A stretch of 32,975 bases of DNA, taken from Lachnospiraceae bacterium. Lineage in GTDB: Bacteria > Bacillota_A > Clostridia > Lachnospirales > Lachnospiraceae. The notes under the pieces were generated by a model, which was not told the DNA's origin, made no database searches, and saw only the letters and a list, made by a program, of their open reading frames with translations. Within the stretch, counting starts at the first letter, position 1. Each line of letters opens with the position of its first letter. This document shows positions 9,283 through 26,507 of the stretch, one piece after another. The position numbers and the translations under genes are program-made. The stretch covers positions 1 to 32,975 of the forward strand of contig JAGBNT010000077.1 in assembly GCA_017634255.1 (NCBI GenBank). Reading direction: 5' to 3'.

Positions 9283-10032
9283 TCAAAAATCCAGCTCCTT
9301 CTTTCGGAAACTTAAGATAGTCAAGATAAGCGCGAGGACAACGTAGGTCAGGAACCCCTTTAAATAGAGGGCGGCACCCTCGGCAGGCAGACCCAGCACT
9401 ATATCCGTAAGAGCCATGTCTGCCATGGTTCCATAATAATAACGGTCGATATGATATTGTGCCACTAAGGTCGTATCCGAAAAAAGCAGGAAGGCGCCGG
9501 GTATCAAAATGGAGCAGGCAGTATAGATCAGGACAGCCAGGGGGATGTTCCAGGTAATGAACAGGAAAAGCGCGGAGATGGTAAGATACCCCAGGCACTG
9601 GTAAAGACCCGTAATAACGGCAAAGTAGACCCAAACCGCCTGGTCATGGGTGAGATCGGCTCCGAAGGCAAGCTGGAATATAAATATGAACAGGGTCAGG
9701 ATCACATTCATTACGAGGGTGACTATCACCGTATCCAGGAATTTTGCGAGCACAGCCTTTTCCCGGGTAAGCCCCCTGCCTATGGCGGTTATGAGCGCCA
9801 TGGAGCTGACCTCATCTCCATAGACAAATAAAAAGGTAAGAAGCCCGAAGGTAAATTCCAAAAAGTAAAGTATCAGAAAAATTGCATCGGCAAAGACAGT
9901 CCCGTCCCAGACAAAGGTAAATTTATATCCCGCCACGGCGACAGCGAGCAGGACAATCCCCAGGATAAGGCTTATCCATAAGGTCTTTTTGTGCATTATC
10001 CTGTTTATGTCGGCACTTATGAGCCTTCTCAT
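9283..10032 (-). CDS. ABC-2 type transporter permease (second of two)
   Basis: This 249-residue membrane protein has six predicted hydrophobic segments and resembles the permease just upstream: both start with MRR(L/M)I, and both carry a YGDE...IGRGL(T/S)R motif after the second segment, so they look like paralogues that form a heterodimer. It starts four bases inside the previous gene (ATGA) with AAGGAG in front. Together with the ATPase at 10742-11695 it should form an exporter or a permease-linked peptide or lipid transporter. The substrate is unknown. Confidence 0.86.
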   Translation of the reverse strand: MRRLISADINRIMHKKTLWISLILGIVLLAVAVAGYKFTFVWDGTVFADAIFLILYFLEFTFGLLTFLFVYGDEVSSMALITAIGRGLTREKAVLAKFLDTVIVTLVMNVILTLFIFIFQLAFGADLTHDQAVWVYFAVITGLYQCLGYLTISALFLFITWNIPLAVLIYTACSILIPGAFLLFSDTTLVAQYHIDRYYYGTMADMALTDIVLGLPAEGAALYLKGFLTYVVLALILTILSFRKKELDF

Positions 10033-10745
10033 AGCGCAAGCTCCTTTCTCTTAAAGACAGCTGCGGTCAGGATTATCACAGGGCAGATATATAAAATGAC
10101 CGCTGCCGGCAGCTGCCAGGCGATATTCCCCGCCTCTATCGCCGCATAGCCCCTATCGATGAGTCCGTAGAAGGACGCATCCAGAAAAGGCAGGTGAGCC
10201 TCCTCCTGAAACGCGGACAGGACGGGCTCTAAAATAAATATGAGTGTTATATCCGCAATCATCCCGGGCACCATGCTCCAGCATATCAGGATGAAAAATG
10301 CGCATATCCCAAGGATGATAAGCAGTCTTACCCATCCCAGGACCAGATATACGGCAAGCATATCGTACTGTCTGGAAGTAAGGACTATATCCATTAAAAA
10401 ATTTTTAAAGCGTATCGTAAGGTAGAGCAGGAAAAATAAAAGGGCTGATAAAACGGCGCAATCGATGAGCTTTCCCAGAATAAGCCTGGTACGGGAGAGC
10501 CCCCGCCCTATGACACCCTGCATGGTTCCCGAGTGCAGCTCATCCCCGTAGACTGACAGCAAAACCGGCAGAGATATCATCAATATGCCGCCATAGTTTA
10601 CGAAGGAATATATAAGGTCTATATTTTCCGATGGCTCCGTATCTGTAGTCCAGTATAAGCACATAAAGCACAGTATCACGGCAAAGACGTAAAAGCCGGG
10701 TTTTCGGAGGATACGCCGCAGATCACCACGGATCATTCTTCTCAT
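10029..10745 (-). CDS. ABC-2 type transporter permease (first of two)
   Basis: This 238-residue protein has about six hydrophobic segments and the YGDELHSGTM...IGRGLSR motif typical of small ABC-2 permeases of the ABC-2 superfamily in Bacillota. It starts inside the stop of the ATPase gene (ATGA overlap) with GAGGAC upstream, and its own stop overlaps the second permease. The tight overlaps show one operon: ATPase, permease, permease. Confidence 0.87.
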   Translation of the reverse strand: MRRMIRGDLRRILRKPGFYVFAVILCFMCLYWTTDTEPSENIDLIYSFVNYGGILMISLPVLLSVYGDELHSGTMQGVIGRGLSRTRLILGKLIDCAVLSALLFFLLYLTIRFKNFLMDIVLTSRQYDMLAVYLVLGWVRLLIILGICAFFILICWSMVPGMIADITLIFILEPVLSAFQEEAHLPFLDASFYGLIDRGYAAIEAGNIAWQLPAAVILYICPVIILTAAVFKRKELAL

Positions 10746-11695
10746 AGGGCGCTGTCCTCCCTGCTAGACGGGGCAGCGTGCTCATCTTCCGCCGTTACTG
10801 GGGCGGCTGCCTCATCTTCCGCCTGTACAGGGGCAGTCTCCGCTTTTGGAGCCTCAGGGATCTCCTCCTTCGGAGGGGCGATGAGATTGAAGTAATAGTC
10901 CTCCAGCGAGGAGCGCTCCTCCACCTCGCGAAGGATCCTGACCCCGCCGGCTGAAAGCAGCTCCCGCGCCCTTGGAAGGTCGTCGATAACGATCTCCACC
11001 GCCTGCTGCTTATCCTTAAGGTCCTCCCGGGTTATCTCCCGGACCAAGACGCCCTCGTTGACTATACCGAAGCGGTCGGCGGTATGCTCCAGCTCACCGA
11101 GGATATGTGAGGAGACGATAACGGTCATATTAAACTCGTCCCGAAAACGTTTTATCATATTGCGGACATCCGCAATTCCCTGGGGATCCAGACCGTTTGT
11201 AGGCTCATCCAGTATAAGTATCTCGGGGTTTCCCAGTATGGCATTCGCAATCCCTAAGCGCTGCATCATTCCCATGGAGAAGGTTTTACAGGGCTTCTTC
11301 GTGTCCGGAAGTCCCACCAGCTCCAAAACCCGCTTTATCTCGCCGTTTATCTTTCGCTTCGGGATGCCCTTTACCGTGGCGTAGTAGTAGAGATTTTCCC
11401 TTGCGGAAAGGTATTTATAAAATCTTGCACCCACGAGAAAGCCTATCTTATTTCTGTTTTTTAAGAGCTCCCTGTTGCTGCGGCTGCCGGCGATGGACAC
11501 AGCGCCCCCGTTCATTTCCGAAAGCCCCAGTATCATTTTAAATATGGTCGTCTTACCCGCTCCGTTCTTGCCGATAAGCCCATAGATATCTCCCCGGTTT
11601 ACCTGCATGTTCACGCCATTTAAAACAAGGTGCCTGCCGTATCTCTTTTTTATGTTCTTAAGCTGTATTACCGCCTCTTCACCCAGACTCACCAA
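10742..11695 (-). CDS. ABC transporter ATP-binding protein with a low-complexity acidic tail
   Basis: This 317-residue ATPase carries Walker A (GLIGKNGAGKTT), the signature FSMGMMQRL (in place of LSxGQ) and Walker B (ILILDEPTNGLD), as in CcmA-type exporters. After the ATPase fold (about 1-255) there is an Ala/Glu/Pro-rich tail with two copies of a ten-residue AEDE(A/H)AAP unit, encoded by a 30-bp tandem repeat. The start is taken as TTG at 11695, nine bases after AAAGGAG; a GTG one codon later is possible. It overlaps the end of the metallopeptidase gene by seven bases, so the peptidase and transporter are probably made together. Confidence 0.9.
   Translation of the reverse strand: MVSLGEEAVIQLKNIKKRYGRHLVLNGVNMQVNRGDIYGLIGKNGAGKTTIFKMILGLSEMNGGAVSIAGSRSNRELLKNRNKIGFLVGARFYKYLSARENLYYYATVKGIPKRKINGEIKRVLELVGLPDTKKPCKTFSMGMMQRLGIANAILGNPEILILDEPTNGLDPQGIADVRNMIKRFRDEFNMTVIVSSHILGELEHTADRFGIVNEGVLVREITREDLKDKQQAVEIVIDDLPRARELLSAGGVRILREVEERSSLEDYYFNLIAPPKEEIPEAPKAETAPVQAEDEAAAPVTAEDEHAAPSSREDSAL
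10781..10840. repeat. 30-bp tandem repeat within the ABC ATPase gene
   Basis: Two 30-bp units (10781-10810 and 10811-10840), each starting CTCATCTTCCGCC, are preceded by a partial third. They encode the repeated AEDE-rich tail of the ATPase. A repeat like this can gain or lose units by slippage without breaking the frame. Confidence 0.8.
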
Positions 11696-13836
11696 ACCTG
11701 TATTCTCCTTTCCTTTTCAAGGTACATTCCGTCCCCGGGCTTTATATCATAGGTCTCCAGAAATTCGTCGAACTGCTGGAGCGCCACATTTATCCTGTAG
11801 AAGTTAAGGGGGTGGGAATCGACGTTAAACTGACCGCTTTCAGTCTCCAACTCGTACTGGGTAGCCCAGCAAAGGGCGTAATGGCGGAAAAATGCGTCAT
11901 AGTCGAAGTCCTCATCGTTTTCGGCTATTTCGAGCACACACTTTATCCCTCCCATGTCGGCAGTGGCCTCTCCGCAGACCAGACTGCCTTCGCAGGCTCC
12001 CGAGGCCTCGTAGGGATGGAGCGTGGAATAATAAGCCGAAACCTTATCCATGCGGTCTACAAATTTTAGCTTATCATCCTCCGGGAGCCAGTCCTCCTCG
12101 ACCCCCTCTTTATTGAACAGGGCTCCGCCGTCATCGAAGCCGTGGGTTATCTCATGCCCTACAGTGGTGCCTATCCCCGCTAGGAGCTGCTCCTCGGACA
12201 TTTCCGGATAAAATTCGGGATCGTTTGCAATTCCCGAGAAAATGTATATCCCGTTGGTCTGCGGATCATACATGGCGTTGCAGATGGTCGTGCTGAGCTC
12301 CTGGTCGTAGGGGTCCCAGACCTGGCGGTCAAAGGGCTTAAGTGCGCGCTCCGCCCTTAAGAAATTATAATACCGGGAGCAGTCGAGAGCGGCATCGAGA
12401 AAGGTTCCGCCCTCCTTCTTTGCCGTTATATCCAGCGATGAATAGTCTACAAGCTCCGTGCTGGGGTAGATTACATGTATGCTCATGGTCTCCAGCTTGT
12501 CGAGGCAGGCGACCCTCCCCTCCTCCGAAAGCCAGTCCTCCTTTGAGAAGATATCCTTAAACTCTTCTATTATCTCCTCGGTCATGCCATAGAGCCTGTC
12601 GTATTCCCCTGCATCCGTATATTTTTCGACATACAGCTTGTCCATCGCAGCCACCATGGGGCTTTGGGCAATGTATTCATTAAAGAGTATCGAATCCAGC
12701 TCGGACTCCTCAGTATCATTAAGATTTTCGCCCTCCTGCGTCCCTTCCTCATCGCTGCCGTCCTCTTCCTCGTCCGTCCGGTATTCCGGCTCGGAGGCGT
12801 AGCTTCTGTAGGCGGCAAAGTCATAGGAATCCCTGTCCAGGTATTTTTCGGAAAAAAGGAGGTAGTGTACGATGAACATGGACTTGATATCCTCGAGCTC
12901 GCCGGAAAGGTCGAGGTCCTGGAGCCCCTGAATATATTTAAGGTCGGCAATATAGCTGTCCCTGCCCTTGTAGCCCCATTTATCGAGATATTTTTCTATC
13001 GGGTAAGCCCCTGCGGCTTCTGCGATATCAGAGCGGGTAAGGGTATTGTCAGCTTCGTTGAGATACAGGGAATCGACGCTTCTGCAGGACATATTCTCAA
13101 GGAGCTTTTTTTCAATCCTGTAGCAGCCACTGGTAACAGCCTTTATCTCATGCTGGTCATATCCAAGCCCCGAGAGCATATATTCTATGGAATATTCGAT
13201 GTACTCCTTATATCTGAGCCCGCTTGTATTGATGGCAAAATAATAGTTATAGCCGCTGGATGCCGTTTCCAGAGAAAGCTGCGGAGCGAAGAGATAGACC
13301 GCGTAGGCATCGGGGTTTTCTTCGGAGCGATACGCCGAGTTCACCGTGATCAGCGCCTCCCCCAGCGGATTTGCTTCGGGATCGGTCATCCAGGAGCACA
13401 GCTCCTCCGCCGTAGAAATGCTCTGGATCGAGCCAATATACGGCTTAAGGGGGTCTGTCCCTGCGAGCGCCCTTGCGTCCCAGTCCTCTGCAAGCTCGGC
13501 GTATTTCTTAAGCTCAAGAGCCTCCTTGCTGTTAAGGGAGCTGTCTTCGAGCAGAGCCCGTTTATTGCTCAATATAACCTCGTCTATCATATCTATGGCA
13601 GAGGTTTCCCTGCCCTCTTCTGCTGAAAGTATCCAGTCCTTGTTGGCAGCGGCGGCATAGTCGTCCTGAATACGTATCTCGCTCTCCCGGGTTACGCTGC
13701 CGATGATGTCGGAATCCACCCATTTGTCTCCGGGCTCGTCCCCCGATACTGTATCTTCGAGCTCGCTGCAGCCGCTCAGGAAGGTGATCATGAGCAGCAA
13801 TAGTACAGCGGTAAATTTATTAAGAGACTTTTTCAT
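11689..13836 (-). CDS. M13 (neprilysin-like) zinc metallopeptidase lipoprotein
   Basis: The C-terminal half has the M13 zinc site HEITH (H561, H565; catalytic E562) and the second motif GEATADMGG (E623, D627). The spacing of about 62 residues between the first histidine and the third ligand matches neprilysin. The N-terminus is a lipoprotein signal peptide ending LSGC (C23), so the enzyme should be anchored outside the membrane and cut short peptides. I chose ATG at 13836 because the signal peptide begins there; the frame also opens at 13881, but that ATG lies inside a perfect-looking inverted repeat. An acidic insert rich in E, D and G lies near residues 350-375. It is followed by the ABC transporter genes with overlap, which suggests peptide handling coupled to transport. 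Confidence 0.9.
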   Translation of the reverse strand: MKKSLNKFTAVLLLLMITFLSGCSELEDTVSGDEPGDKWVDSDIIGSVTRESEIRIQDDYAAAANKDWILSAEEGRETSAIDMIDEVILSNKRALLEDSSLNSKEALELKKYAELAEDWDARALAGTDPLKPYIGSIQSISTAEELCSWMTDPEANPLGEALITVNSAYRSEENPDAYAVYLFAPQLSLETASSGYNYYFAINTSGLRYKEYIEYSIEYMLSGLGYDQHEIKAVTSGCYRIEKKLLENMSCRSVDSLYLNEADNTLTRSDIAEAAGAYPIEKYLDKWGYKGRDSYIADLKYIQGLQDLDLSGELEDIKSMFIVHYLLFSEKYLDRDSYDFAAYRSYASEPEYRTDEEEDGSDEEGTQEGENLNDTEESELDSILFNEYIAQSPMVAAMDKLYVEKYTDAGEYDRLYGMTEEIIEEFKDIFSKEDWLSEEGRVACLDKLETMSIHVIYPSTELVDYSSLDITAKKEGGTFLDAALDCSRYYNFLRAERALKPFDRQVWDPYDQELSTTICNAMYDPQTNGIYIFSGIANDPEFYPEMSEEQLLAGIGTTVGHEITHGFDDGGALFNKEGVEEDWLPEDDKLKFVDRMDKVSAYYSTLHPYEASGACEGSLVCGEATADMGGIKCVLEIAENDEDFDYDAFFRHYALCWATQYELETESGQFNVDSHPLNFYRINVALQQFDEFLETYDIKPGDGMYLEKERRIQVW

Positions 13837-13856
13837 TTTTACGCCTGACTTTTTAC

Positions 13857-13897
13857 ATTTATAGTAAACGAAATTATTCATTTCGCTTACTATAAAT
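13857..13897. promoter_or_regulatory. 41-bp inverted repeat upstream of the M13 peptidase gene (operator candidate)
   Basis: Two 18-bp arms (13857-13874 and 13880-13897) pair with a single G-T type mismatch around a five-base loop. There is no T-run, so it is a poor terminator. It sits 20 bases before the preferred start at 13836. Its core AGTAAACG-N13-CGCTTACT resembles the inverted repeat at 19745-19774. Confidence 0.65.
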
Positions 13898-13910: not shown

Positions 13911-14441
13911 TTACTGTATATATACGATGGCGGTCTTTCGCAGGGAGTTGACGATCCTTATCACGCCCGAATATATGATACCTGCGGAAAAGAACCAGAC
14001 CACATATTTATTGTTGCCGCGAAAGATTATGCAGAGGGCGGCGATGATAATGCTGCTGGCGCCTGCAACAATACTTCTTCTCCATGCCGGGGACTGCTGC
14101 CTTTTTGCCTCTATGCCCCGCAGAAGGTGTATTACCCCCGAACCGGCGTAGATCGTCAGCAGATACAGGAGGATGAATACCCGCGGAATATCTGCAAGTG
14201 TAAGGGTAAAGCCCCCGAGATCCAGCAAAAATATGGCGGTAAACAGGATGCGTTTCCCGCCTACCATATAGCGCGCCATCGTGAGATAATATCCAAGCTT
14301 GACCAGCCCCCTAAATACCAGCAGCAGACCCAGGAAGATCATTACAAGTAAATATCCGTCCTCAGTAAAATTAAGAAATAGGCCTGCGGCTATCAGGGCA
14401 GCTCCCATAAGTATATTGCTTATTCGTCTTGCTTTTCCCAT
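13911..14441 (-). CDS. DUF308/HdeD-like membrane protein
   Basis: This 176-residue protein is made of about six hydrophobic segments in pairs, with short basic loops, as in the DUF308/HdeD family (small membrane proteins, some linked to acid stress, most of unknown role). Its start lies 22 bases inside the preceding gene, so both are expected on one transcript. The RBS is weak, which agrees with translational coupling. Family assignment is by overall look rather than a signature motif. Confidence 0.72.
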   Translation of the reverse strand: MGKARRISNILMGAALIAAGLFLNFTEDGYLLVMIFLGLLLVFRGLVKLGYYLTMARYMVGGKRILFTAIFLLDLGGFTLTLADIPRVFILLYLLTIYAGSGVIHLLRGIEAKRQQSPAWRRSIVAGASSIIIAALCIIFRGNNKYVVWFFSAGIIYSGVIRIVNSLRKTAIVYIQ

Positions 14442-15598
14442 TGCCTGTTCTTCTCCGCTTCTATAAGCATCTTAAAGTCCTTAAGCCCCTTAAAGCCCTT
14501 TTCCCTGAAATCCACCGAAAAGCCCGCAAGGGTATTTCCTGACTGGAATATCCTGTTGGTCACCATGCTTTTCTGGGCGAGAGCCGCCAGGATAAACCTG
14601 CCTAAAAAGGTTTCATCCTTGTCCTCCTTAGCAGCCTCCCTGTATTCCGTTTGAAAGCCCTCAAGGTTGAAATCCCTTATCTCATATCCGCTTAAGTACT
14701 CCCCAAAAGCCTTCCAGTCCTCGGAGTCGTCTGTCCTGCGGATGGAAAGTATCTTGCGGATAGTATGCTCGAAGGGCTCTATGCTCTTCCAGGCATAGAC
14801 GTTTTTCAAAAAATCATCGTATTGCCCACGAAGATACCCGAGAGCATAGACCATCTGGGCGAAGGCGTGCAGGTAATCCGATTGGTTGTCCTTTACCATC
14901 TCCTTATAATCATTCCACGCCGGAAGATACTTATACCGGATAAAGCCGTAGTCGGGGAGGTGTCCGGCTCTGCCGTGACCGAGATTCATTACCGAGTTTT
15001 CATTTGCCTGAAAGACCGTATTGGTATAGATGCCCTTATCGACATTCTCCGGGGTACTCGGATTGTGCCCGAAAACGATGGGCTTTTTATATACCTTCCC
15101 GTTCTGTTGAATGAGCTCGTAAAAATAGTCATTTGTATTGTTGATCACGAGGGAGGGGGTTCCCGCAAAATGCTGGTGCGCCCAGGTATCCGCCAAAACA
15201 TGCATGGCTACCCCTGCGGCTTCCGGTCCCTTGTTTTTTGCGAGCTTAACGGTCTCCACCACAAGATCCCCGTTGGGACCGCAGATAAGGCGGAATTTGT
15301 CCATATATATTCTGGAACGCTTTCTCTTTTTTGCATAGAGATCCCGGGGCAGGAAATGGAATGAGGACCAGATCCTCGTGATATCCTGAAGTCCGAGGAT
15401 ATCTGTACGGGCATCCGCCATTTCCAGAGTCAGCTGGGTCGTTGCAGCCATCCGCGGACCGTTTATCTTGGCAAGGAAGGTTCTGGTGCACATATCCACA
15501 AACAGCGCACCGGAGCAGATTGTAAGGCTCTCTTCATGGGAAAAACCGGCGATGATCGCGGCACAGTATGTGGCATAGTAATGGAAATCCTTGTTCAT
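14420..15598 (-). CDS. DUF6765-like protein, putative metal-dependent phospholipase-type fold
   Basis: The 392-residue soluble protein starts MNKDFHYYATYCAAIIAGFS, like proteins of the DUF6765 family. It contains HVLADTWAHQH (H133-x3-D137-x3-H141), the HxxxDxxxH pattern found in zinc-dependent phospholipase C and P1-type nucleases; D4, H6 and D50 (in ALFVDMC) are further possible ligands. No signal peptide is seen, so if it is an enzyme it acts inside the cell. The start follows the hydrolase stop by four bases (TAA, GCGG, ATG) without a clear RBS, pointing to coupling. The function is not established for this family; the phospholipase idea is inferred from the motif and from the lipid-type neighbours. 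Confidence 0.75.
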   Translation of the reverse strand: MNKDFHYYATYCAAIIAGFSHEESLTICSGALFVDMCTRTFLAKINGPRMAATTQLTLEMADARTDILGLQDITRIWSSFHFLPRDLYAKKRKRSRIYMDKFRLICGPNGDLVVETVKLAKNKGPEAAGVAMHVLADTWAHQHFAGTPSLVINNTNDYFYELIQQNGKVYKKPIVFGHNPSTPENVDKGIYTNTVFQANENSVMNLGHGRAGHLPDYGFIRYKYLPAWNDYKEMVKDNQSDYLHAFAQMVYALGYLRGQYDDFLKNVYAWKSIEPFEHTIRKILSIRRTDDSEDWKAFGEYLSGYEIRDFNLEGFQTEYREAAKEDKDETFLGRFILAALAQKSMVTNRIFQSGNTLAGFSVDFREKGFKGLKDFKMLIEAEKNRQWEKQDE

Positions 15599-15602
15599 CC
15601 GC

Positions 15603-16355
15603 TTATCTGGCGCATGGAAAAAATTCCAAAGCCTCTTTCATTATCCATTCCTGATCTCCCGGGTTGTCATATTCATGTCCTGCGTCCTTTAGGATATGGA
15701 GGGCGATGCCGTTTTTTCCTGCATAGTCCTCGGAATAGTGGATAGGCACCGTCTCGTCCTTATCTCCATGTATTATCAGGATTTTTTCCGGATACGGCGG
15801 CGCTTCGTCAAATATATCGTGGGCGCATAAGTCATCATAATAATCTTTCGTCAGCAGCAGGGGCTGGTCATGGCCAAAATCTACCTTTTCGCCCTTCATA
15901 AGGCGCGCGAACCTGTCCTCGCTCATGGCGGCTTTCATTACCTCCGCCATTTTAAGAGCCGGAGAACGCAGCAGGAGCTTTTCAAAAGCCTCCGGATGCC
16001 TTAAGTGGTAGTTCATGGCGAGATACCCTCCAAGGCTGGTGGCAAAGCACCATATCGGAACCCCGTATTTCTCATGAATATATTTATAGACCGTATCCAT
16101 ATCCTGCATGCAGTTTTCCACGGTAAGCGCTGAAAACGGGGCATCGCTCCTGCCATGCCCCGGCCAGTCAAAGGCAAATGTGCCGATCCGCTTATTTTTC
16201 ATTACCCCGTGCAGCTTTTCGATAGTGGGGCTATGCTTGCTGCCGGTAAACCCGTGCAGGCACAGTATAATGGCTGTCTGCCCCACGCTGCTTCCATCCA
16301 GACAGGCAATATGATAGTCCCGGCTGGTATCTAAGTTTATCTCTTTTCTGTCCAT
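15603..16355 (-). CDS. Alpha/beta hydrolase (serine esterase, lysophospholipase- or thioesterase-like)
   Basis: The 250-residue protein shows the hydrolase fold landmarks: an oxyanion-side motif LCLHGFTGSK, FDWPGHGRSD, a nucleophile elbow ATSLGG (S107, with Ala in place of the first Gly), HGDKDETVP (D200) and AGHEYD (H227). No signal peptide, so it is cytoplasmic. Lying between an acyl-activating enzyme and a DUF6765 protein, it may release or edit acyl thioesters, like a type II thioesterase, or hydrolyse acyl esters. Start: ATG with AGGA five bases upstream. Gap to the ligase gene: 31 bases. Confidence 0.88.
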   Translation of the reverse strand: MDRKEINLDTSRDYHIACLDGSSVGQTAIILCLHGFTGSKHSPTIEKLHGVMKNKRIGTFAFDWPGHGRSDAPFSALTVENCMQDMDTVYKYIHEKYGVPIWCFATSLGGYLAMNYHLRHPEAFEKLLLRSPALKMAEVMKAAMSEDRFARLMKGEKVDFGHDQPLLLTKDYYDDLCAHDIFDEAPPYPEKILIIHGDKDETVPIHYSEDYAGKNGIALHILKDAGHEYDNPGDQEWIMKEALEFFPCAR

Positions 16356-16386
16356 TATTTTCCTGATTTAGCGAACCGCTTTTTCT

Positions 16387-17919
16387 TTAGCCCACAGGCT
16401 CATCTCGAAGTATCTCGGTACGCAGTATCTTCCTCGCTGAATTTTTAATAAAGGGATTTTCTCTAATCACAAGCTTTGAAAGCTGTCTGTATGTAGGCTG
16501 TTCCCTGTTGTAGTCATCCAGTATCTTCTGCAGGGCGGCTTTGAGCTCTTCCGCTGACATATTCTGCGACAGTGCCTCCTCAGGGAAGATGCGTGCTGTA
16601 AGCGCATTGTTGTCGCCGGTTACAACCACCTCAGAAATCAGGGGATTTAGAGCCAGCTTGCCCTCTATTTCCTCGGGGGATATATTCTCTCCGTTGGAAA
16701 GGATGATGAGGTTTTTAACCCTGCCGTTTATAAACAGGAAGCCGTCCTCGTCCATATAGCCCTTATCGCCCGTATGCAGCCAGCCGTCCTTAAGAGCCTC
16801 CGCCGTTTCCTCCTCCATTTCGTAATAGCCCCTCATAACGCTGCTGCTCCGGACGAGTATCTCGCCGTTCTCAAAGGAGATTTCGACGCCGGGAAGCGGC
16901 TTTCCGATAGAGCCCTTCTTGAAATCGTGCACCCTGTTGGAGCTGATAACGGGGGAACATTCGGACATCCCGTAGCCCTCCAGCACCTGTACGCCGTACT
17001 TTTCAAATTCATCGATGTAAAATTCCTCCAGATGGGCTCCGCCGGTAAATATGGTCTTCAGCTTGCCGCCGAATACTTTTTCAGCGATCACCTCGGGGGG
17101 AGTACCCTCTCCGGAGGCTCGGATCCTCTTATATATGGTCTCTATCATCAGGGGTACCATCAGCATTACATTGGGCTTAAACAGGCTCATATTCCTTACC
17201 ATATGCAGCAGGGAATCGTTGATGCAGACGACGGCACCCATCATAAAGCCCTGCAGCCAGTCCATGACCAGGCAGAAGGCGTGATGCACCGGGAGCACGC
17301 TTAAAAATACCACTCCGGGATCGACCTTATATAGGATGGCTTCAACGTTTGTATAAAGATTTTTCTGCGTCAGCATTACGCCCTTGCTCTTTCCGGTGGT
17401 ACCTGAGGTAAAAACTATCATGGAAAGGTCGTCTTCCGCGGGAATCGGAACCTCTCCGGCATCTTTGCCGGCTTCCATAAGGGATTCGAGAGTCTCTGTT
17501 CCCTCGACCTCTTCCCCCGAAAGCATCCATATTTTTTTGACCTCGGGGCATTTTGCCCTGATCGGAGCCGCCAGAGCGGCGAATTTCGGATCAAGAAATA
17601 CACCCGTAGAGTGGGAGCGTACTATGAGCCCTATCAGATCGGCAGGAGGCAGCGCCGCATCCAGCGGAACCGCAGTATTCCTTCCGGTGATAACTCCCAT
17701 ATACACACAGACCCACTCAGGAGAGGAGGTACCGAGTAGGGTTAGCTTTGTCTCGGAAAAGCCCTGAGCAAAAAGACCTCTTCTCACCGAGCCCATTTTC
17801 TCTCCGAACTGCCGATAGGTATACTCTTCTATTTCCTTTCCGTTGAGCCAGCGAACCGCCACCAGATCTCCGAAGCTCTTCTCACTTGTTTCCCAAAGGC
17901 TGTAAATAGTCTTACTCAT
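16387..17919 (-). CDS. AMP-forming acyl-CoA/acyl-ACP ligase (ANL superfamily)
   Basis: This 510-residue enzyme has the ANL core motifs: IVFTSGTTGKSKGVML (near 168-183), GYGMSECSP, TGDKGYMDEDG, GRVKNLIILSNGENISPEEIE, and the C-terminal catalytic lysine in KNSARKILR. These are of the long-chain fatty acid ligase type rather than an amino-acid adenylation type. It would activate a carboxylic acid with ATP and load it on CoA or, given the ACP gene just upstream, on that carrier. It is a paralogue of the first domain of the 1216-residue protein at 19773-23423, with nearly identical GYGMSECSP and NLIILSNGENISPE motifs. Start: ATG with GAGGA nine bases upstream. A 94-base gap separates it from the ACP gene. 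Confidence 0.92.
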   Translation of the reverse strand: MSKTIYSLWETSEKSFGDLVAVRWLNGKEIEEYTYRQFGEKMGSVRRGLFAQGFSETKLTLLGTSSPEWVCVYMGVITGRNTAVPLDAALPPADLIGLIVRSHSTGVFLDPKFAALAAPIRAKCPEVKKIWMLSGEEVEGTETLESLMEAGKDAGEVPIPAEDDLSMIVFTSGTTGKSKGVMLTQKNLYTNVEAILYKVDPGVVFLSVLPVHHAFCLVMDWLQGFMMGAVVCINDSLLHMVRNMSLFKPNVMLMVPLMIETIYKRIRASGEGTPPEVIAEKVFGGKLKTIFTGGAHLEEFYIDEFEKYGVQVLEGYGMSECSPVISSNRVHDFKKGSIGKPLPGVEISFENGEILVRSSSVMRGYYEMEEETAEALKDGWLHTGDKGYMDEDGFLFINGRVKNLIILSNGENISPEEIEGKLALNPLISEVVVTGDNNALTARIFPEEALSQNMSAEELKAALQKILDDYNREQPTYRQLSKLVIRENPFIKNSARKILRTEILRDEPVG

Positions 17920-18013
17920 AAATATTTATCCTCATATCTCTAGTATGTCTATGGTTAACATAAGTAAACGATAATTTTGTTGTTTGCATCTTAAGATGGC
18001 TTTTTTGGACTAC

Positions 18014-18253
18014 TTAGTTTACATAATCTTCAAGGAACTCTATGGCGTCTCCCACGGTTTTGATATTACTGAGCTTATGCTCATCTGCCCCGAGATCGAA
18101 CTCTACATCAAACTCATCCTCAAGATCGCCTAAGAATGTCATAAGGTCGAATGAGCTTAAACCCAGGTCGTCCCTGAAGGTCATATCGTTTGTGATGTCC
18201 TCCGCCTTTACAGTGCAGTATCTTGAAATGATCTCCTTAAATTTTTCTTCCAT
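18014..18253 (-). CDS. Acyl carrier protein (free-standing)
   Basis: This 79-residue acidic protein has the four-helix ACP pattern. The phosphopantetheine serine is S34 in LGLSSFDLM; the usual DSL is SSF here, so the aspartate before the serine is missing. It should carry an acyl group between the ligase and the condensation enzyme beside it rather than serve general fatty acid synthesis. Strong RBS (AAAGGAGG) and ATG start. No phosphopantetheinyl transferase gene is seen in the window, so the carrier must be activated by one encoded elsewhere. Confidence 0.93.
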   Translation of the reverse strand: MEEKFKEIISRYCTVKAEDITNDMTFRDDLGLSSFDLMTFLGDLEDEFDVEFDLGADEHKLSNIKTVGDAIEFLEDYVN

Positions 18254-18274
18254 ATTGTATGCCTCCTTTATTTT

Positions 18275-19654
18275 TCAGACCATATCTATGATCTCTCCGA
18301 CGGTGCGCCGGGGGTCTTCAATGCCTCTGAACATTATCCGCATCATATAATAGTAGAGCAGCTCCATGTTTTTTTCCGTTAACTGTGCGTTCTGATAGTG
18401 GTAGGAGAAATTCAGCCCTCCTCCGGTAAGATGCGAAACCGTAAGATACATCTTCTTGGTCGCCGCCCCGTTCGCAAACCATTTTATGTGGGAGGGCAGC
18501 TTAAACGACTCGTTGCTCGTGGAAAGCGGCGGCTGGTAGGTGAGATAGCAGCTCACATAGGATGTATCCTTCGGAGTCTTGTATCTTTTCTTCATCTCGT
18601 CGCGGATGAGCTCAGGGTCGTAGTTCCCGTACATGTAGACGCGGTTTTGAAAGTCCTGTATCCTTTGTGCAGCCTCAAGGAAGGTGGTATCTGCGGGAAT
18701 TACGGTACGGCAGGGATAGCACATGGTACGGCTTCCGCCGGAAAAGATCTCGTCGCGGGTGGCTCTTCTGGAAATAAAGTTTTCCACCGTGATATCCTCC
18801 TGCCCACCGCATACCTTGGAAAGGTAGGTGCGGATGACCAGCAGGAGCAGGTTTGTGGGCGAGATCACATATTCCCTGCAAAAATCTATCATCCGGGCGG
18901 TGCTGTCCGCTTCGAGCACATAGTCAGCCACCAGTACCTGAAGCTGCTTTTTTTCGATGTCCGCGGCTCTCAGGGCAGGATTTTTGTGCTTTTTGCGGGA
19001 CTGCTCCAAAACCGACACACCCTGTATATCGGAATAGAGCGGCTCCCCGTAGAGATCGAGCTGGCTGTCCCAGAATTTTTTTGCCCGTGCCAGCCTCTTA
19101 GGGGAGGCTTCCTTTTCCAGATCCGCTTCCAGTACCTTTTCAAAATCCACCTGATCTTCAGGAAGCGGCATGCCGTACTTATAGTGTCCGTAATAACTCA
19201 TAATGCCGTTGACCATTATGGCTATTCCGACAGAGTCGCAAAGCCTGTGGTCCATATGTACGAAAAAGCCGTGATAACCCTCGGGGAGATGCACGATGAA
19301 AAATTCGCACATCGGGATATCGTCTCCGTCAAAGGTGCGGTAAGCCCATTTCTGCATGGTCTCATCCGCCTGAGCAAAGGACAGGCTCGTAAGATCCTTT
19401 TCGTCAAAATCCTGAGCTTCAAAGTCGGCTATATACTGCTTTACCCTTTCTTTGGAATCCGGCGGGGTAAACTGGAGCCTTAGACAGCTGTAGCTCTTTA
19501 TCTCTTCATTGATGCTTTTTTTCAAAAGCCCGATGTCCATATCCGCCTGAAAAGCCGCCACTATGCTAAGCCCCGAAACCTGCTGTGTTCCGTAGCTCTT
19601 TATCCACCGATAGTGCATATTCTGGGCGGCAGTTAGTGCATATTTCTTTGTCAT
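18275..19654 (-). CDS. Condensation-domain / PapA5-like acyltransferase
   Basis: The 459-residue protein has the two-lobed condensation-domain layout. The active-site motif HHxxxDG appears as DHRLCDS: the catalytic histidine (H136) and aspartate (D140) are kept, while the first His is Asp and the last Gly is Ser. Similar free-standing enzymes (PapA5, wax-ester-synthase-like, NRPS C domains) pass acyl groups from a carrier or CoA to an amine or alcohol. Its place beside an ACP gene (21-base gap) and two adenylating enzymes makes an acyl-ACP donor likely. Start: ATG with GGAGG. The acceptor is unknown. Confidence 0.85.
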   Translation of the reverse strand: MTKKYALTAAQNMHYRWIKSYGTQQVSGLSIVAAFQADMDIGLLKKSINEEIKSYSCLRLQFTPPDSKERVKQYIADFEAQDFDEKDLTSLSFAQADETMQKWAYRTFDGDDIPMCEFFIVHLPEGYHGFFVHMDHRLCDSVGIAIMVNGIMSYYGHYKYGMPLPEDQVDFEKVLEADLEKEASPKRLARAKKFWDSQLDLYGEPLYSDIQGVSVLEQSRKKHKNPALRAADIEKKQLQVLVADYVLEADSTARMIDFCREYVISPTNLLLLVIRTYLSKVCGGQEDITVENFISRRATRDEIFSGGSRTMCYPCRTVIPADTTFLEAAQRIQDFQNRVYMYGNYDPELIRDEMKKRYKTPKDTSYVSCYLTYQPPLSTSNESFKLPSHIKWFANGAATKKMYLTVSHLTGGGLNFSYHYQNAQLTEKNMELLYYYMMRIMFRGIEDPRRTVGEIIDMV

Positions 19655-19744
19655 TAAGTTCCTCCAAGTAAGTTTTTTATATCGCGCGAGACTGTCCGAA
19701 AACGCTTTGCCCCGAAATCCGGGTTTCTAAGTGAAGCCTTATAT

Positions 19745-19774
19745 AGTAAGCGGCAAATGCTTTAGACGCTTATT
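19745..19774. promoter_or_regulatory. Inverted repeat between the NRPS-like and acyltransferase genes
   Basis: AGTAAGCG (19745-19752) and CGCTTATT (19767-19774) are separated by 14 bases and pair with one mismatch. The core resembles the arms of the 41-bp repeat at 13857-13897. It lies in the 118-base gap upstream of the acyltransferase gene and just touches the stop of the NRPS-like gene. No terminator is seen in this gap. Confidence 0.4.
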
Positions 19775-22700
19775 ACAGATCCACCTTAATATTAAGTACC
19801 GTAGGGGTCATTTCTTCGCCGCAGCTTTCCCTGAAATATTTCTTTACCCCGGTTACGAAGGACTCTTCAGCCGGCTCTACATCGGCTATCAGCTCCATTT
19901 CGTTGGTCTTTTCGCTGTAGATCATGTAGCTGCTTGCACAGCTGGCTCTTCCTGAGCGCATTAGCGCCTGCTCGACTCCGCCCAGGTTATAGTAGTGCCT
20001 GCCGTTATGACCATCGGTAAGAACAGCCCTGCCGCTCTTCTCTAACAGATCCAGCTCTCCGTTTGGCATGATACGGGCAACTATGCCGGTGTCGTACAGC
20101 ACTCCCTCCTTGTACGGGTTGTCTATCTCATCCTTACAGTTCACCGGCTTTACGCCAAGATAGAGTTCTCCCCAGGCTCCGTAGGGCTTTTTCATGTAGC
20201 CGTCGTCTAAAACATAGACCCTTACATCCTCATCCTCCGATACTCCCTCCAGCAGGCTGAAGCCCACTTCTTTATTGATATGACCGGCTTTCATGAAGAT
20301 ATGCTTAGGGATATACTTGTCCGGAATGTGGGTTTTAAGCATCCTCGCGGAGGTCTCCGTCTCCATGGACAGTATTATCGCCTCGTAGCAATCCAGAAAT
20401 TCCTCCAGAAGGTCTCTGTCGAAACGGCTGCTCCAGAAGCGAAGCTCGGTGTAGAAGCCGCTGTTATCCGACATTACCTGCATGTGGAAGGGAAGGGAAT
20501 CCAGGCGGGGATGCAGCCTTTTGGCAGGAAGCCCTCCTATCCTGTCGATCTCAATAATGTCGCCCTGATACTGGAAGAACATCTCGCCCTCTCTCGGTAC
20601 GGAGATCTGGCAGTGCATGGTGTCCATGACCTGTCTTCCTATCCTCTTTAAAAGAGCCAGAGTCGTTTCATGGGGCAGGGTCTGCTGGCGGCAAAGGTAG
20701 GTCAGGAAAAGCGGACCCGCAAGCCTTCTCCAGCGCCCGTCAGTTCTTCCGCTGTGGATGCTGCAGGTCATGACATCCTTTTCATCCGAGAATAGACCTA
20801 CGCAGTAATTAAAGGCAGTAAGGAAAAGAACATTTTCGGATACTCCCTGCTTGCGGCAGAAATATTCTATCTTAAGCTTGGTGAGCTTGCTGAGCCTGCG
20901 CCTTATAATGTCCTTATCCTGGCGGTCGAGACCCTCGAGTCCCTTTTTGTTAAGGAGGGATCGGGACATCTTATATCCGTCGAGAAGCCCCTGGTAGTAG
21001 TGGGTATTTTTGGCTCTGACACCCATCTCCTCCCTCTTCTTATCGTCGAGGATGTAGTCGTAGAAGGTATAGCGCTCCTTCTCTATGGGCTGCCCGGCGT
21101 AGACCTTGTTCACATCCTCCAGCAGGATGTTCATCGTCATGCCGTCGCCCATTATATGCGCCACATCAAAGAGCATATACTTGGATTTTTCCGTCTCATA
21201 TATATAAATGTGATAGAGCCTGTCGTCCTCAGTATAAGTGAAAGGCACTACAAGATCCTGCTTTTTCTCCTCCCATTCGGCTTCGGAGAGCTTTATTATC
21301 GGTATATCCGGCTGAGCCTCATCCTGCCTGTAATAAGCCAGATACTTATTCTCTGCGGGCTTTATTATACCCTTTAAGCCGGGATGCGCATTTAATACCT
21401 CCTCTATGGCGGCTTTGAGCTTTAAAAGGTCAATGGAGGGATCCAGCTCAAAGGTGAAGGGCAGGTTGCCAGTTGTATTTCCCCTGATGACGTAGCCGAA
21501 GTACATCATCATGTTTGTAAGCGGATAGACGCTTTGGGGCGGATAAACCCCCAGATCCCCGGAGGATGAGTCCAAAAGCTCTGCGATGCTGGCAATAGTA
21601 TTGTGGCTTGTGAGGTCATTAAAGCTTATGATCTTCTTAAGCTTCTCTTCGATCTCCTCTATCAGCAGAACGGCTCCCATGGAGTCCAGTCCGCAGTCAT
21701 ACAGATTGTCATTGATGCCTATGAGCTCATTTCCCGTTATCCTGACCAGCATGTCGTAAAGGCTCTGCTGGGTCTCGTTTTCGGGCTTTTTGATCTTTGA
21801 AGCCTTGTCCTCCCTGGCAGATTTTTCATCGAAATACCTGCTCCTTATGATCTTCTTTGAGGAGGTCTTTTCAAAGGGATCCTTCCTGATGCTTAAGGCA
21901 GTTATCCTTGAATAGGTGGGAAGATCGCCGTTATGCTTATCCACAAGCTCCTGCACGGCGGACTTAATATCGGTTATCCCCGTTTTCTGGGCGTATTCAT
22001 AATTGGGATAGACCTCTGCGGCTATCTTGTCCCCGTCCTGATAGACAAGGATATCCGATACGATAGGGTCGTTGTCGAAATGATCCTCTATGGACTCCGG
22101 GCTGATATTCTCGCCGTTGCTTAAAATGATAAGATTCTTTTTTCTGCCGGTAAGGAAGACAAAGCGCTCCTCGTCAATGGTGGCAAGGTCGCCTGTACAT
22201 AAAAAGCCGTCCTCGGTTATCGCCTCTTTCGTTCTTTCGGGATCTTTATAGTAGCCCATCATCACGGAGGGACTCTTTACCTGCAGCTCTCCGTCTACGA
22301 TACGCGCCTGTACGCCGCGGACCAGAAAGCCCACAGAACCCCGTTTATCCGGGCGGCCGTAGTGGGGCACGGAAATTTTCGGAGAACATTCCGACATACC
22401 GTAGCCCTGTCCCACCTCAATATCGAAGGAGGCAAGGCTATCCGCAAGCTCCCCTGAGAGATATCCGCCTCCGCTTATGAGCTTATGCAGCCTCTTTCCC
22501 AGCACCTTTTCACGGGCTGCCTCGCGGCTTAGACCCTCCTGCTTCATTGCCATCTGAAGGTGGCTGTTTACAGCCTTGAGCATCATGGGAACCATTCTTA
22601 TATAAGTAGGCTGGAAGAACTCTATTGAATGAAACAGCTTTTTAAGGTCGCTGCAAATGGCAAGCTCCGTGCCGTAGCGGAAAAGGGTCAGTACATCGCC

Positions 22701-23423
22701 GTTTAAGCAGAATACATGGTTTATAGGAAGGACATTCAGTGCGACCTCGTTGTACTGGTCTCCGAGATCGTCGTTGCAGAAGATATTGTCGATACAGTTG
22801 GCATGGGAAAGCATTACGCCCTTTGATACACCGGAGGTTCCGGAGGTAAAGATTATAAGGGCGCAGTCTCCGGGAGCCGGCGCACTGCTAAGCTCATGCT
22901 CCGCGGGGGTTTCAAGGATGACCGGCACACTGACCCTGCGCCGTATCCTTTGCAGGCAGATGATCCTCTTGATATTCTCGCAGTTTTCTATCAGGAATGA
23001 GGCTCTGGGCTCATATTCCCAGTCATAGAAAAGGATATCTATGTCCGCCTTTCTGGCGTTTGCCACGAGGTTGTCCGGTGAAAGCTGTACATCCAAAGGC
23101 ACAGCCACAGAGCCGGAGGCTGCCACTCCGAGAAGTACGGTTAAATACTCGTAACCGGTCCTTCCCAGCAGTGCGACATGCAGCTTATGACCGTAGACTT
23201 CCTCCTGTTCCTCCGTCCAGGCTGCAAGCCTTTCGGTATCGGCGTCTGTCTGGGCGTAGCTCTTTTCATATACAGTGCCGTCCTGCTCCCATTTGAGGAA
23301 GGTTTTGTCTCCAAAGGTCTTTCCAGCGTTTCGGACCAGCTCAAGTATAGTGGTCGTATCGTCTGCGTGTAGTTCCGGGTTTCCGCCATTATCATAAACG
23401 ATATGGTCATTGCTGTAGTCCAT
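19773..23423 (-). CDS. NRPS-like protein: adenylation - carrier - condensation - vestigial adenylation tail
   Basis: The protein has 1216 residues from ATG 23423, chosen because AAGGGG lies six bases upstream; the frame opens nine codons earlier. Domains: (1) an acyl-ligase-type adenylation domain, about 1-530, with IIFTSGTSGVSKGVML, GYGMSECSP, NLIILSNGENISPE and a lysine in SSKKIIR; (2) a carrier domain with S581 in GLDSMGAVLL; (3) a condensation domain, about 630-1040, with AHIMGDG (H756, D760); (4) residues about 1066-1216, which read like the last part of an amino-acid adenylation domain (GELYLG, LYDTGIVARIMPNGELDLL, NLGGVEQALM) without its main ATP-binding part. It would load an acyl group on its own carrier and transfer it to an acceptor. 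No thioesterase domain. It is followed by the acyltransferase and ACP genes. Confidence 0.9.
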   Translation of the reverse strand: MDYSNDHIVYDNGGNPELHADDTTTILELVRNAGKTFGDKTFLKWEQDGTVYEKSYAQTDADTERLAAWTEEQEEVYGHKLHVALLGRTGYEYLTVLLGVAASGSVAVPLDVQLSPDNLVANARKADIDILFYDWEYEPRASFLIENCENIKRIICLQRIRRRVSVPVILETPAEHELSSAPAPGDCALIIFTSGTSGVSKGVMLSHANCIDNIFCNDDLGDQYNEVALNVLPINHVFCLNGDVLTLFRYGTELAICSDLKKLFHSIEFFQPTYIRMVPMMLKAVNSHLQMAMKQEGLSREAAREKVLGKRLHKLISGGGYLSGELADSLASFDIEVGQGYGMSECSPKISVPHYGRPDKRGSVGFLVRGVQARIVDGELQVKSPSVMMGYYKDPERTKEAITEDGFLCTGDLATIDEERFVFLTGRKKNLIILSNGENISPESIEDHFDNDPIVSDILVYQDGDKIAAEVYPNYEYAQKTGITDIKSAVQELVDKHNGDLPTYSRITALSIRKDPFEKTSSKKIIRSRYFDEKSAREDKASKIKKPENETQQSLYDMLVRITGNELIGINDNLYDCGLDSMGAVLLIEEIEEKLKKIISFNDLTSHNTIASIAELLDSSSGDLGVYPPQSVYPLTNMMMYFGYVIRGNTTGNLPFTFELDPSIDLLKLKAAIEEVLNAHPGLKGIIKPAENKYLAYYRQDEAQPDIPIIKLSEAEWEEKKQDLVVPFTYTEDDRLYHIYIYETEKSKYMLFDVAHIMGDGMTMNILLEDVNKVYAGQPIEKERYTFYDYILDDKKREEMGVRAKNTHYYQGLLDGYKMSRSLLNKKGLEGLDRQDKDIIRRRLSKLTKLKIEYFCRKQGVSENVLFLTAFNYCVGLFSDEKDVMTCSIHSGRTDGRWRRLAGPLFLTYLCRQQTLPHETTLALLKRIGRQVMDTMHCQISVPREGEMFFQYQGDIIEIDRIGGLPAKRLHPRLDSLPFHMQVMSDNSGFYTELRFWSSRFDRDLLEEFLDCYEAIILSMETETSARMLKTHIPDKYIPKHIFMKAGHINKEVGFSLLEGVSEDEDVRVYVLDDGYMKKPYGAWGELYLGVKPVNCKDEIDNPYKEGVLYDTGIVARIMPNGELDLLEKSGRAVLTDGHNGRHYYNLGGVEQALMRSGRASCASSYMIYSEKTNEMELIADVEPAEESFVTGVKKYFRESCGEEMTPTVLNIKVDL

Positions 23424-23475
23424 GTGCGCCCCTTTCTGCCCGTAAATCATGAGCTGTGCAGGTAACTTTTAAGAA

Positions 23476-24549
23476 TCAGATCCTGGAAGTCACCATTTTT
23501 AAAAGTTTAATATACAATTCCTTCTTATTATGCTTGTGCAGCATCCCTCCCTGAGGAAACATATGGTCCCCTCTCATGACGGGACACACATTCCATATTC
23601 CTGTTTTTATATCATTTTTATCAAAGGGCTGCGAAGGGGCATTAAGAGGTGCCATTGCGGAAATAGTGTTAACCAGACCGTCATTGTCGCGCCAGCTCTC
23701 GTCAATATGAAAGCCGCCCCTTGTATATCCTGAATATGCACCGACCATACATGCCGTCCTCACCAGAAAAGGCTCCGCTCCCCTGGGTCTGTAGGTTCCG
23801 TCAGCCTGTCTTTCACAGCAGCTGTAGGGAACGGAAAAATAATACACCTCCGGCAGGGTCTCTATCCTCTTATTGAGCTCCAGTGCGTGGTCTATACGCA
23901 TTTCATAATCGGCGAAATCGCTTTTTGCCCTGTCTGTTTTTTTATTATGCACCTTTTTAGCGCCAATACGCGCAAGCACCTTGCTCCACCACGGTGTTTT
24001 AACCTTTTCACGGTCAAAATCCGGGTCCCTGAGCATGTCATATATGCTTGTTCCGTTCATCGGCGAAGCGAGGGCTATAATGCTGTGAACACGGTGGGAC
24101 AGACCGCCTTTGAAAAACGGTGACAGCTCCTTTTCTGCCGTCCCTACCCTTTCCTCGGGCGAGCCGTTTTTCAGCATGGAGGCAAAGAGACGGATTGTTG
24201 TTCCGCCAAAGGAATGTCCAATAAGGATAAGACGTGTATTGTCATCCCATGAGGGGATAAGGGGACGACCGGTATAATTCTGTCCGAAGCGGCTATGACC
24301 GTTCCTTGCGCTGTGAACCTTTCCATAATCTACTCTGAGTCCCGCTATTTGTGCATAAAGCTCGCAGGCACGATCCCAGGCACTCCCGTCCGGGGAAACA
24401 GACGCAGCATAGCTTCTAAAGCCGTTTTTACTTAAGAAGCTCATAAGATCCCCGTTTCTCATCCCCCAATAGGGTATCACTCTGTGCTCCTTGTCATAAC
24501 TGCCCCATCCGGACAGACCGTGTACAAAAACCAGAAATGTTTTTTTCAT
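23476..24549 (-). CDS. Lipase-like alpha/beta hydrolase (family I.5 / staphylococcal type)
   Basis: The 357-residue protein begins FLVFVHGLSGWG, the oxyanion-hole motif of the lipase family that includes Geobacillus and staphylococcal lipases, and has the nucleophile elbow GHSFGG (S113) and a late GDHMFPQGG with candidate H329. It lacks the signal peptide those secreted lipases carry, so it is probably cytoplasmic here. It would hydrolyse acyl esters. It is the first gene of the leftward cluster, ending 52 bases before the NRPS-like start codon. The RBS in front of ATG 24549 is weak: AAGGAAG is about 17 bases away. Confidence 0.83.
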   Translation of the reverse strand: MKKTFLVFVHGLSGWGSYDKEHRVIPYWGMRNGDLMSFLSKNGFRSYAASVSPDGSAWDRACELYAQIAGLRVDYGKVHSARNGHSRFGQNYTGRPLIPSWDDNTRLILIGHSFGGTTIRLFASMLKNGSPEERVGTAEKELSPFFKGGLSHRVHSIIALASPMNGTSIYDMLRDPDFDREKVKTPWWSKVLARIGAKKVHNKKTDRAKSDFADYEMRIDHALELNKRIETLPEVYYFSVPYSCCERQADGTYRPRGAEPFLVRTACMVGAYSGYTRGGFHIDESWRDNDGLVNTISAMAPLNAPSQPFDKNDIKTGIWNVCPVMRGDHMFPQGGMLHKHNKKELYIKLLKMVTSRI

Positions 24550-24610: not shown

Positions 24611-26507
24611 TCAAAGTAAAGGGATCGTACTTCTGTTGCAGGACATAAGTACGTTGTAGCTGTAGCGGTCGTCTTCAATATCAGGTCGGAAGAGCTCTCC
24701 GCTGTCCTTGATTATGATCTCGGGCTCATCTATGAAGCGGAGGACACATTCGCCCAGAACTTTTTTCCCGGTATTCCTCTCTTCTGTTTTCTTAAAGAGG
24801 GACAGCAGAAGGGCTTTGAGCTCCTCCGGCTTATTTGCCATTATGCCCTGCTCTTTAAGGCATTCCTTTATCCATGAGACAAGCCGTTCGTATTCCTCCG
24901 GCTCGTATTCAAAGGAGCGCATCTTTACCTTTTCAAAGTCCGGGTTATCGAGCATATAGGGAATACTTTCGCCTCCCTTAACAATTAGGACAAAACCGCA
25001 GAATACAGCCACAGCGGAAATCTGGGACAGCAGCATCCCCATGCCCATAGCAACGGCTCCGCCGCCTCGGAAGGCCCGTTGATCATCTCATATATCTCCA
25101 GCATCGCGCAGAGTACCGTATTGGCTATGAGATAACCGCTTCCCCAAAACAGGAGTATGGCCTTTGTGAACGCGGTGGATACCGCGGACATGCAAAGGCC
25201 GGTGGTATTGCTTTTAAGCGAATGCTGCACAAATTTGGAAAGGTCCCTTAAGGAGAAATGGAACCGAAGCTTATAGGTATTGCTCTTTTTAAGAAAATGG
25301 ACAGACACTACCAGCAGATAGGCGATGTAGCTTGTCATGGTGGCAAGTGAAAGTCCCTTCATTCCAATCACCTTTGACAGGGCAATGGACAGTCCCACAT
25401 TGACGGCAAAGGAGTAAGATACCCGGCGTAAGAAAGCGTATCATCCCCGTCGGAGGAGACCATCTCATCCATAAAGGTAGCCAGTGCCATAAAGGGAGGC
25501 ACAAAAATATAAAACTGATAATATTCCCGGGCAAAGGTCTCTATAACCGGGGAACTGGTAAAGTAGCCGAAATAAAGATTTTCCGTGAGATAATACAAAA
25601 CGGTATGTATTACCCCCAGGGCAATTGTCGTGAAAAAGCCCAGGGTAAAGAGCTCCCTCGCCCTTTTATAATTGCCGTCCCCCTTAGCCCGGGCGCAAAG
25701 ATTTGAGCAGCCGGAGGTGATGATATTGGAAATGAAGGTGCTTAAGGAGACGAGCGGAAACATAAGGGAAGTCGCCGCCAGCGCGTTCTCTCCGAGGACA
25801 TGGCCCGAAACAACTCCGTCCACCATCGTAAGGGCAATGGCAAAAAAGATGCCTGCCGAATATTCCAGAGCGCGTTTCCTGTATTCCTTACTGATAAAGG
25901 AAAGCTTGAAAATAGAGCGCAGCGCGGCGCCAATACTGCCCTGCTCTTTGAAATGCTTTCTTATTGTGGTACATATCGCCAGAAGGACCGTTCCTATAAG
26001 GGCTATGGCGATACAGGACGAAAAAGCATTATCACTCAATGCCTTCATCTCCGTAGCGAAATCGGCGCGGCTCCAGCCTTCCAGTATGAACTCAAAAAAC
26101 AGAACGGCGGCGGGGGGCGTTGACAGGTATATGACACCCATATTGACCAAGATCTGGATGAAATTAAAGATAGCGATCTCCCGGATACCGAATTTGTCCT
26201 CGTCCCTGACCAGCCGGCGGTATATCAAGCCTATGAGAATGATGGCCAGGGTCTCAGACATACTCACGACAATGTATTCAAAGCTATGGTAGGTCAGGTA
26301 GTCTGTCAGTGTGCAGCTTATCAGGGCCACCAAGCCTCCGGTGACCGGACCGAAGATAACGGATACTACAGCCTCAATAGACTCTCCAAGCCATATGGAA
26401 TCGTCCTGTGACAGGCTGAAAACAAGATAATCAAGCGTAATGATCACCAGGGAAATGATAAGGATAAGCAGGGTGCGATTTAAATAAAAACGAAAATTTT
26501 TTTTCAT
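24611..26507 (-). pseudogene. Broken S-component/MATE/ATPase-type exporter gene
   Basis: Three overlapping frames together match the intact exporter at 27797-30049 from end to end. The first frame (26507 down to about 25416) covers the S-component-like domain and the first MATE half (DGVVSGHVLGENALAATSLMFP). A one-base loss near 25416 shifts the frame in the motif GYL(x)YSFAVNVGLS. The second frame runs to GPSEAAEP near 25060, where about 120 residues present in the intact copy are missing and the frame shifts again. The last frame (to 24611) holds MGMGMLLSQ and the C-terminal ATPase-like domain with IIIKDSGELFRPD. The original start (ATG 26507 with GGGAAGGAAA) is still good. An inactive gene is the simplest reading; a sequencing error could explain the first shift but not the deletion. 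Confidence 0.88.

Follow-up and report, generated by a model that had tools for sequence, protein, structure and literature searches.

The gene trio known as the CTA cassette, which encodes a stand-alone condensation (C) protein, an acyl carrier protein (ACP) and an adenylating ligase (A), was reportedly first described by Chang et al. in 2021 (Nat. Microbiol.). Its members include the OaaC-OaaACP-OaaA operon of Coprococcus eutactus and the CTA operon of Blautia wexlerae. OaaC, whose structure is 12KH, makes oleoyl aminovaleric acid in C. eutactus and belongs to a class of C proteins with the motif (D/H)HxxxDS, in which Gly takes the last place in 17% of 127 sequences (PMC13142362). Blautia strains that carry CTA made oleoyl-, palmitoyl- and linoleoyl-ethanolamine in larger amounts than strains without it, and the growth of B. 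wexlerae in toxic free fatty acids was rescued by amines with acyl amine formation (PMC13060934, a 2026 preprint). An action of CTA products on human receptors and a tie to fatty acid tolerance have also been published (PMC13142362, PMC13060934). Also among the closest known systems are the condensation-adenylation (C-A) modules of nonribosomal peptide synthetases (NRPSs) such as LgrA, SrfA-C and tyrocidine synthase, the starter condensation (C-starter) domains of lipopeptide NRPSs and, for an accessory enzyme, the triacylglycerol lipases of the Geobacillus and staphylococcal type.

Here we analyze a 32,975-nucleotide stretch from a Lachnospiraceae bacterium (GenBank assembly GCA_017634255.1, contig JAGBNT010000077.1), referred to as the window. 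Leftward from position 24549 it carries genes for a lipase-like protein (LIP), a fused protein that we call ATC, the C protein, ACP and ligase of a CTA cassette, an alpha/beta hydrolase and a DUF6765 protein, with gaps of 4-118 bases. We propose that the locus encodes two fatty-acid conjugation systems, the CTA cassette and ATC, which most likely act in parallel (probability about 0.7). The gene list and coordinates of a sequence-only reading of this run hold, and it was right to suspect acyl transfer by NRPS-like parts. The parts of the two systems are as follows.

18275-19654, minus strand: stand-alone C protein of the CTA cassette (OaaC type), DHRLCDS at residues 135-141
18014-18253, minus strand: ACP of the CTA cassette, 79 aa
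16387-17919, minus strand: CTA ligase (A), 510 aa, AMP-binding E=6.7e-56, also placed by a tree
19773-23450, minus strand: ATC, 1225 aa (1216 aa in the database copy, whose start lies 9 codons further on), a fusion of a fatty-acyl-type ligase with a carrier, a C domain and the remnant of an A domain
21807-23363, minus strand: ligase domain of ATC, residues 30-548, AMP-binding E=2.7e-51
21555-21785, minus strand: carrier domain of ATC, residues 556-632, GLDSMG with Ser590, PP-binding E=1.7e-10
20316-21542, minus strand: C domain of ATC, residues 637-1045, AHIMGDG, Condensation E=1e-30
19776-20315, minus strand: A', the remnant of an amino-acid A domain, ATC residues 1046-1225

Judged by homology, gene order and motifs, the C-ACP-ligase trio (16387-19654) adds a member to the CTA / fatty acid amide pathway known from the literature. 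The stand-alone C protein has one distinct PDB match at E<=0.001, 12kh_A, at E=1.3e-139 over residues 3-458 of 459. It carries the class motif as DHRLCDS, and DHxxxDS is found in 117 of the 119 close homologues retrieved. In a genome scan with the fused family, which covered the best 80 of 598 stretches (61 fused copies and 19 CTA loci, not a census), the C-T-A order of the window, with stand-alone C, ACP and ligase, is present in 19/19 non-fused loci. The window therefore shares gene order, a full-length OaaC match and DHxxxDS with the operons of C. eutactus and B. wexlerae; unlike them, its cassette is immediately preceded by ATC, with a lipase ahead of that, and is followed by a hydrolase. 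Among plasmid records, the window's C protein matched C domains in 3, all of them distant at 19-20% identity. Because the CTA pathway is already published, the C-ACP-ligase half is not uncharacterised, as the sequence-only reading had called the whole run; its enzymes match a known pathway, one of the outcomes that the sequence-only reading had named as counting against it. The word still suits ATC, as no description of a fused ligase-carrier-C-A' protein was found in the titles and abstract starts of openly licensed PMC papers.

The ligase domain of ATC, 34% identical to the window's CTA ligase, groups with the ligases of this pathway. An unrooted tree of 68 ligase domains unites the CTA ligases with the fused ones (support 100/99) and separates them from 16 other AMP-binding proteins; within this group, the fused ligases cluster together (85/100). 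The tree holds 22 fused rows (the window's and a random draw of others, >480 aa), 27 CTA ligases >480 aa and 19 rows labelled 'other', of which several are long and three (L099_758, L125, L130) are in truth copies of the fused or CTA kind. Based on this grouping, the domain is predicted to be a CTA-type fatty-acyl ligase. The adjoining carrier has a Ser590 that is invariant in 19/19 aligned sequences, and G[LM]DS is present in 119/119 homologues. The C domain (pLDDT of the predicted model 91.5) has relatives of another kind. Its motif, [AS]HxxxDG, is found in 113 of 119 homologues, with no match in five and LHxxxDK in one. An unrooted C-domain tree of 44 rows (15 + 15 + 14) unites the CTA C proteins (100/100) and, apart from them and on the side of the NRPSs, the 13 rows that are truly fused (100/99); L118 and L119 bear the label ATC but are NRPS rows, each identical to one labelled as such, and several NRPS rows are long. 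12kh is not among the 11 PDB sequences that match the C domain of ATC at E<=0.01. Compared with the CTA C protein, profiles give E=2.8e-5 (probability 74), and BLASTP of ATC against the window's copy gives E=0.014. Given that its loader is CTA-like and its joiner NRPS-like, ATC looks like a chimera.

The chain of ATC ends with A'. This segment matches the A domains of NRPSs from related genomes (hhalign, E=1.5e-11) and of tyrocidine synthase 2 (E=7.9e-6), and a Pfam search of A' alone gives no match at E<=1. Residues 637-1225 superpose on C-A didomains, only the C-terminal part of the A domain being present, and no A10 lysine is conserved at the alignment end (read by eye). ATC resembles the C-A modules of LgrA, SrfA-C and tyrocidine synthase in this superposition and in its HxxxDG motif; unlike them, it has an A domain cut to its C-terminal part, no carrier or thioesterase after C-A, and a CTA-type acyl ligase as upstream loader. 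It is therefore not a canonical NRPS elongation or termination module, which would have a complete amino-acid A domain. A separate candidate, that A' is a copy of ATC's own ligase, was ruled out, as hhalign aligned 11 columns with a probability of 0.8 per cent. Since the core and the A10 lysine are lost, A' should not adenylate; its likeliest role is to support the C domain as a platform or to serve in docking. The loss of the A-domain core could also mean that ATC is a functionless NRPS fragment in decay. We consider this very improbable: of 748 homologues scored, the 120 listed all have the same domains, the catalytic residues of ligase, carrier and C domain are invariant in 19/19 aligned sequences, and A' itself is kept in the 19-sequence alignment with a predicted fold of high confidence. 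Judged from the named homologues P0022 and L012, which are 66-67% identical, the host probably lives in an animal gut.

In the mechanism that we propose, the stand-alone CTA ligase would activate a free fatty acid as acyl-AMP and load holo-ACP, and the stand-alone C protein would then hand the acyl chain on to a small amine in free form, so that a fatty acid amide is released. In ATC, loading and transfer would take place within one chain. Its CTA-type ligase would load its own carrier in cis and its HxxxDG C domain, with no carrier downstream, would pass the acyl group to a free acceptor, which may be an amine, an amino acid or an alcohol. A' would not adenylate and may serve as platform or docking site, and the neighbouring hydrolases would probably release or trim acyl groups.

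The distribution of the two systems bears on whether they act separately. In the scan, where flanks reached up to 10 kb per side, often less through contig ends, and one locus (L060) is cut within the ligase, a CTA C protein or ACP was found in 0/61 fused loci. A genus-level set of 48 genomes has fused copies in 29, four of them partial (G023, G029, G046 and G051, the last with ligase residues 2-386 only, at a contig end); seven genomes with ligase-only matches are left out of this count, which would otherwise be 36/48. CTA occurs in 14/48, in 13 by its C protein and in G051 by ACP and ligase. ATC and CTA are found together in 11/48 genomes versus 8.5 expected (one-sided p=0.09, two-sided 0.12); their co-occurrence is not clearly above chance. 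The two lie on different contigs in seven of the 11, some near contig ends, are adjacent in three (G021, G041, G053) and are cut by contig ends in one (G051).

The three genomes in which ATC and CTA are adjacent are close relatives of the window. G041 and G053 have the complete ATC-C-ACP-A-hydrolase set in the order and orientation of the window, and G021 has LIP-ATC-C as far as the contig end. G051 carries ACP-A-hydrolase-DUF6765 on one contig and ATC next to a MATE gene on another. LIP is not beside ATC in G053 and DUF6765 is not in the stretches examined of G041 and G053; because these two genes are not shared throughout, the core consists of five genes, ATC-C-ACP-A-hydrolase, in one clade. 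The conservation that the sequence-only reading had asked about thus holds for this core, in close relatives only. The whole set is not one widely conserved pathway, as all 61 fused loci lack CTA C or ACP in the flanks covered and none of the 80 scan loci has a match at E<=1e-3 to LIP, to DUF6765 or to the hydrolase of the window.

The shared order and direction of the core in G041 and G053, together with LIP-ATC-C in G021, would also be expected if CTA and ATC acted in series on one acceptor, with an N-acyl amine made first and a second acyl group then added to give a diacyl lipid. We regard this as unlikely, given the fused loci of the scan without CTA, the seven genomes with the two systems on different contigs and the co-occurrence figures. 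The joining of two activated acids to one acceptor was the product favored by the sequence-only reading, and beyond the adjacency of ATC and CTA we find nothing that points to it; a diacyl product of the locus is possible but unsupported. A bolder proposal sees in ATC an undescribed kind of synthase that makes lipid amides (or esters) with a single chain, a CTA-type loader joined to an NRPS C-A module with its A domain gutted and kept as scaffold, which in the window's clade works with the CTA cassette on doubly acylated signalling lipids. As a whole, we hold this to be doubtful.

Several findings weigh against two parallel fatty-acid conjugation systems. The retention of ATC-C-ACP-A-hydrolase in the window's relatives fits joint action equally well, and the support for the fused ligase group is under 95 on one measure. 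In addition, the C domain of ATC falls outside the fatty-acid-amide class, with AHIMGDG in place of (D/H)HxxxDS, and amide formation by ATC is for this reason an analogy. The Gly alone is not decisive, because of its occurrence in 17% of the class sequences (PMC13142362).

The neighborhoods of the fused loci, which also occur in cultured bacteria such as Butyribacter intestini (L032) and Oribacterium sp. KHPX15 (L054), are varied. Across 65 loci (60 scan loci and five fetched regions, among them L097, which is without ATC), the commonest neighbors are ABC ATPases in varied places (14/65) and, immediately upstream, a gene judged by eye to be MarR-like (11/65). In one genome, G001, the CTA genes are rearranged (L098, 1692-4850), with ACP and ligase on one strand and C on the opposite strand, facing them. 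Upstream of the ATC of G001 in coordinates (L099, 6153-11179), genes for a membrane acyltransferase, an AMP-binding protein, a carrier and a pyridoxal phosphate-dependent decarboxylase lie together (by eye), a group that resembles a dlt operon with an extra decarboxylase.

The remaining genes of the run encode candidate accessory enzymes.

23476-24549, minus strand: LIP, lipase-like serine hydrolase, 357 aa, Lip_C E=7.4e-48, with S113, D290 and H329 in catalytic positions
15603-16355, minus strand: alpha/beta hydrolase, 250 aa, Hydrolase_4 E=5.4e-20
14420-15598, minus strand: DUF6765 protein, 392 aa, part of the set of the sequence-only reading and outside the shared core

LIP matches the triacylglycerol lipase 8yye of the PDB at E=8.4e-55, aligned from residue 6. 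It resembles the Geobacillus and staphylococcal-type lipases in two aligned stretches and in the catalytic positions of Ser, Asp and His; unlike these solved lipases, it has no leader peptide, its start lying 5 residues ahead of the aligned core, and it is therefore probably intracellular. The alpha/beta hydrolase follows A in G041, G053 and G051 (loci L093, L095 and L097) as in the window, and a different hydrolase, named by eye, is upstream of C in 16/31 CTA loci. The presence of hydrolases beside CTA genes suggests that hydrolysis may go with amide synthesis. Of L093, L095 and L097, only the last has DUF6765 next to the hydrolase; the family is very common (3177 proteins at E<=1e-3), and its possible likeness to the zinc phospholipase C fold comes from one weak structural match.

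These enzymes raise the possibility that the cluster serves chiefly in fatty-acid detoxification or salvage, in which the hydrolases would free acyl chains from lipids and conjugation by the two systems would turn toxic fatty acids into harmless amides. The lipase and hydrolase within the same run, the hydrolase upstream of C in about half of the CTA loci and the amine rescue of B. wexlerae (PMC13060934) are consistent with this. A lipase that lacks a leader peptide, is not beside ATC in G053 and has no homologue in the 80 scan loci fits it less well, as does the absence of DUF6765 from the examined stretches of G041 and G053. We view such a purpose as tentative; being a role, it can be compatible with the two parallel systems.

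It is plausible that the run from LIP to DUF6765 is a single transcript. Two minus-strand promoter-like sites are directly upstream of LIP (24614-24559), and the six minus-strand terminator-like matches are all inside genes, with none in the gaps of the run. Across the region, promoter-like matches are not in excess (9 vs 12.4 expected from shuffles) and terminator-like matches are (19 vs 10.4). The leftward run goes on at 9283-13881 with an M13 peptidase, an ABC ATPase whose likeness to lantibiotic-protection ATPases falls short of the family cut-off and two proteins to which Pfam gives no significant match, and a DDE-type transposase lies at 2048-3814 (DDE_Tnp_1 E=5.2e-8). On the other side, three minus-strand frames at 24611-26507 are collinear pieces of one MATE transporter, compared with an intact-looking 750-aa MATE protein nearby (27797-30049, plus strand), and because of this collinearity the second MATE gene looks broken by frame changes. 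In G051 (L096, 3-3616) a MATE gene is divergent from ATC at about 210 bases without a lipase in between; in the window, the lipase and the MATE pieces separate ATC from the MATE gene.

Taken as a second acyl-transfer family that is common in Lachnospiraceae, ATC would add to the range of lipid conjugates in the gut. Strains without CTA showed acyl amine synthesis at a lower level, ascribed to other acyltransferases (PMC13060934), and ATC is a candidate for this activity. Lastly, the gutted A domain of ATC is a natural experiment on how, adenylation apart, an A domain serves its C domain.
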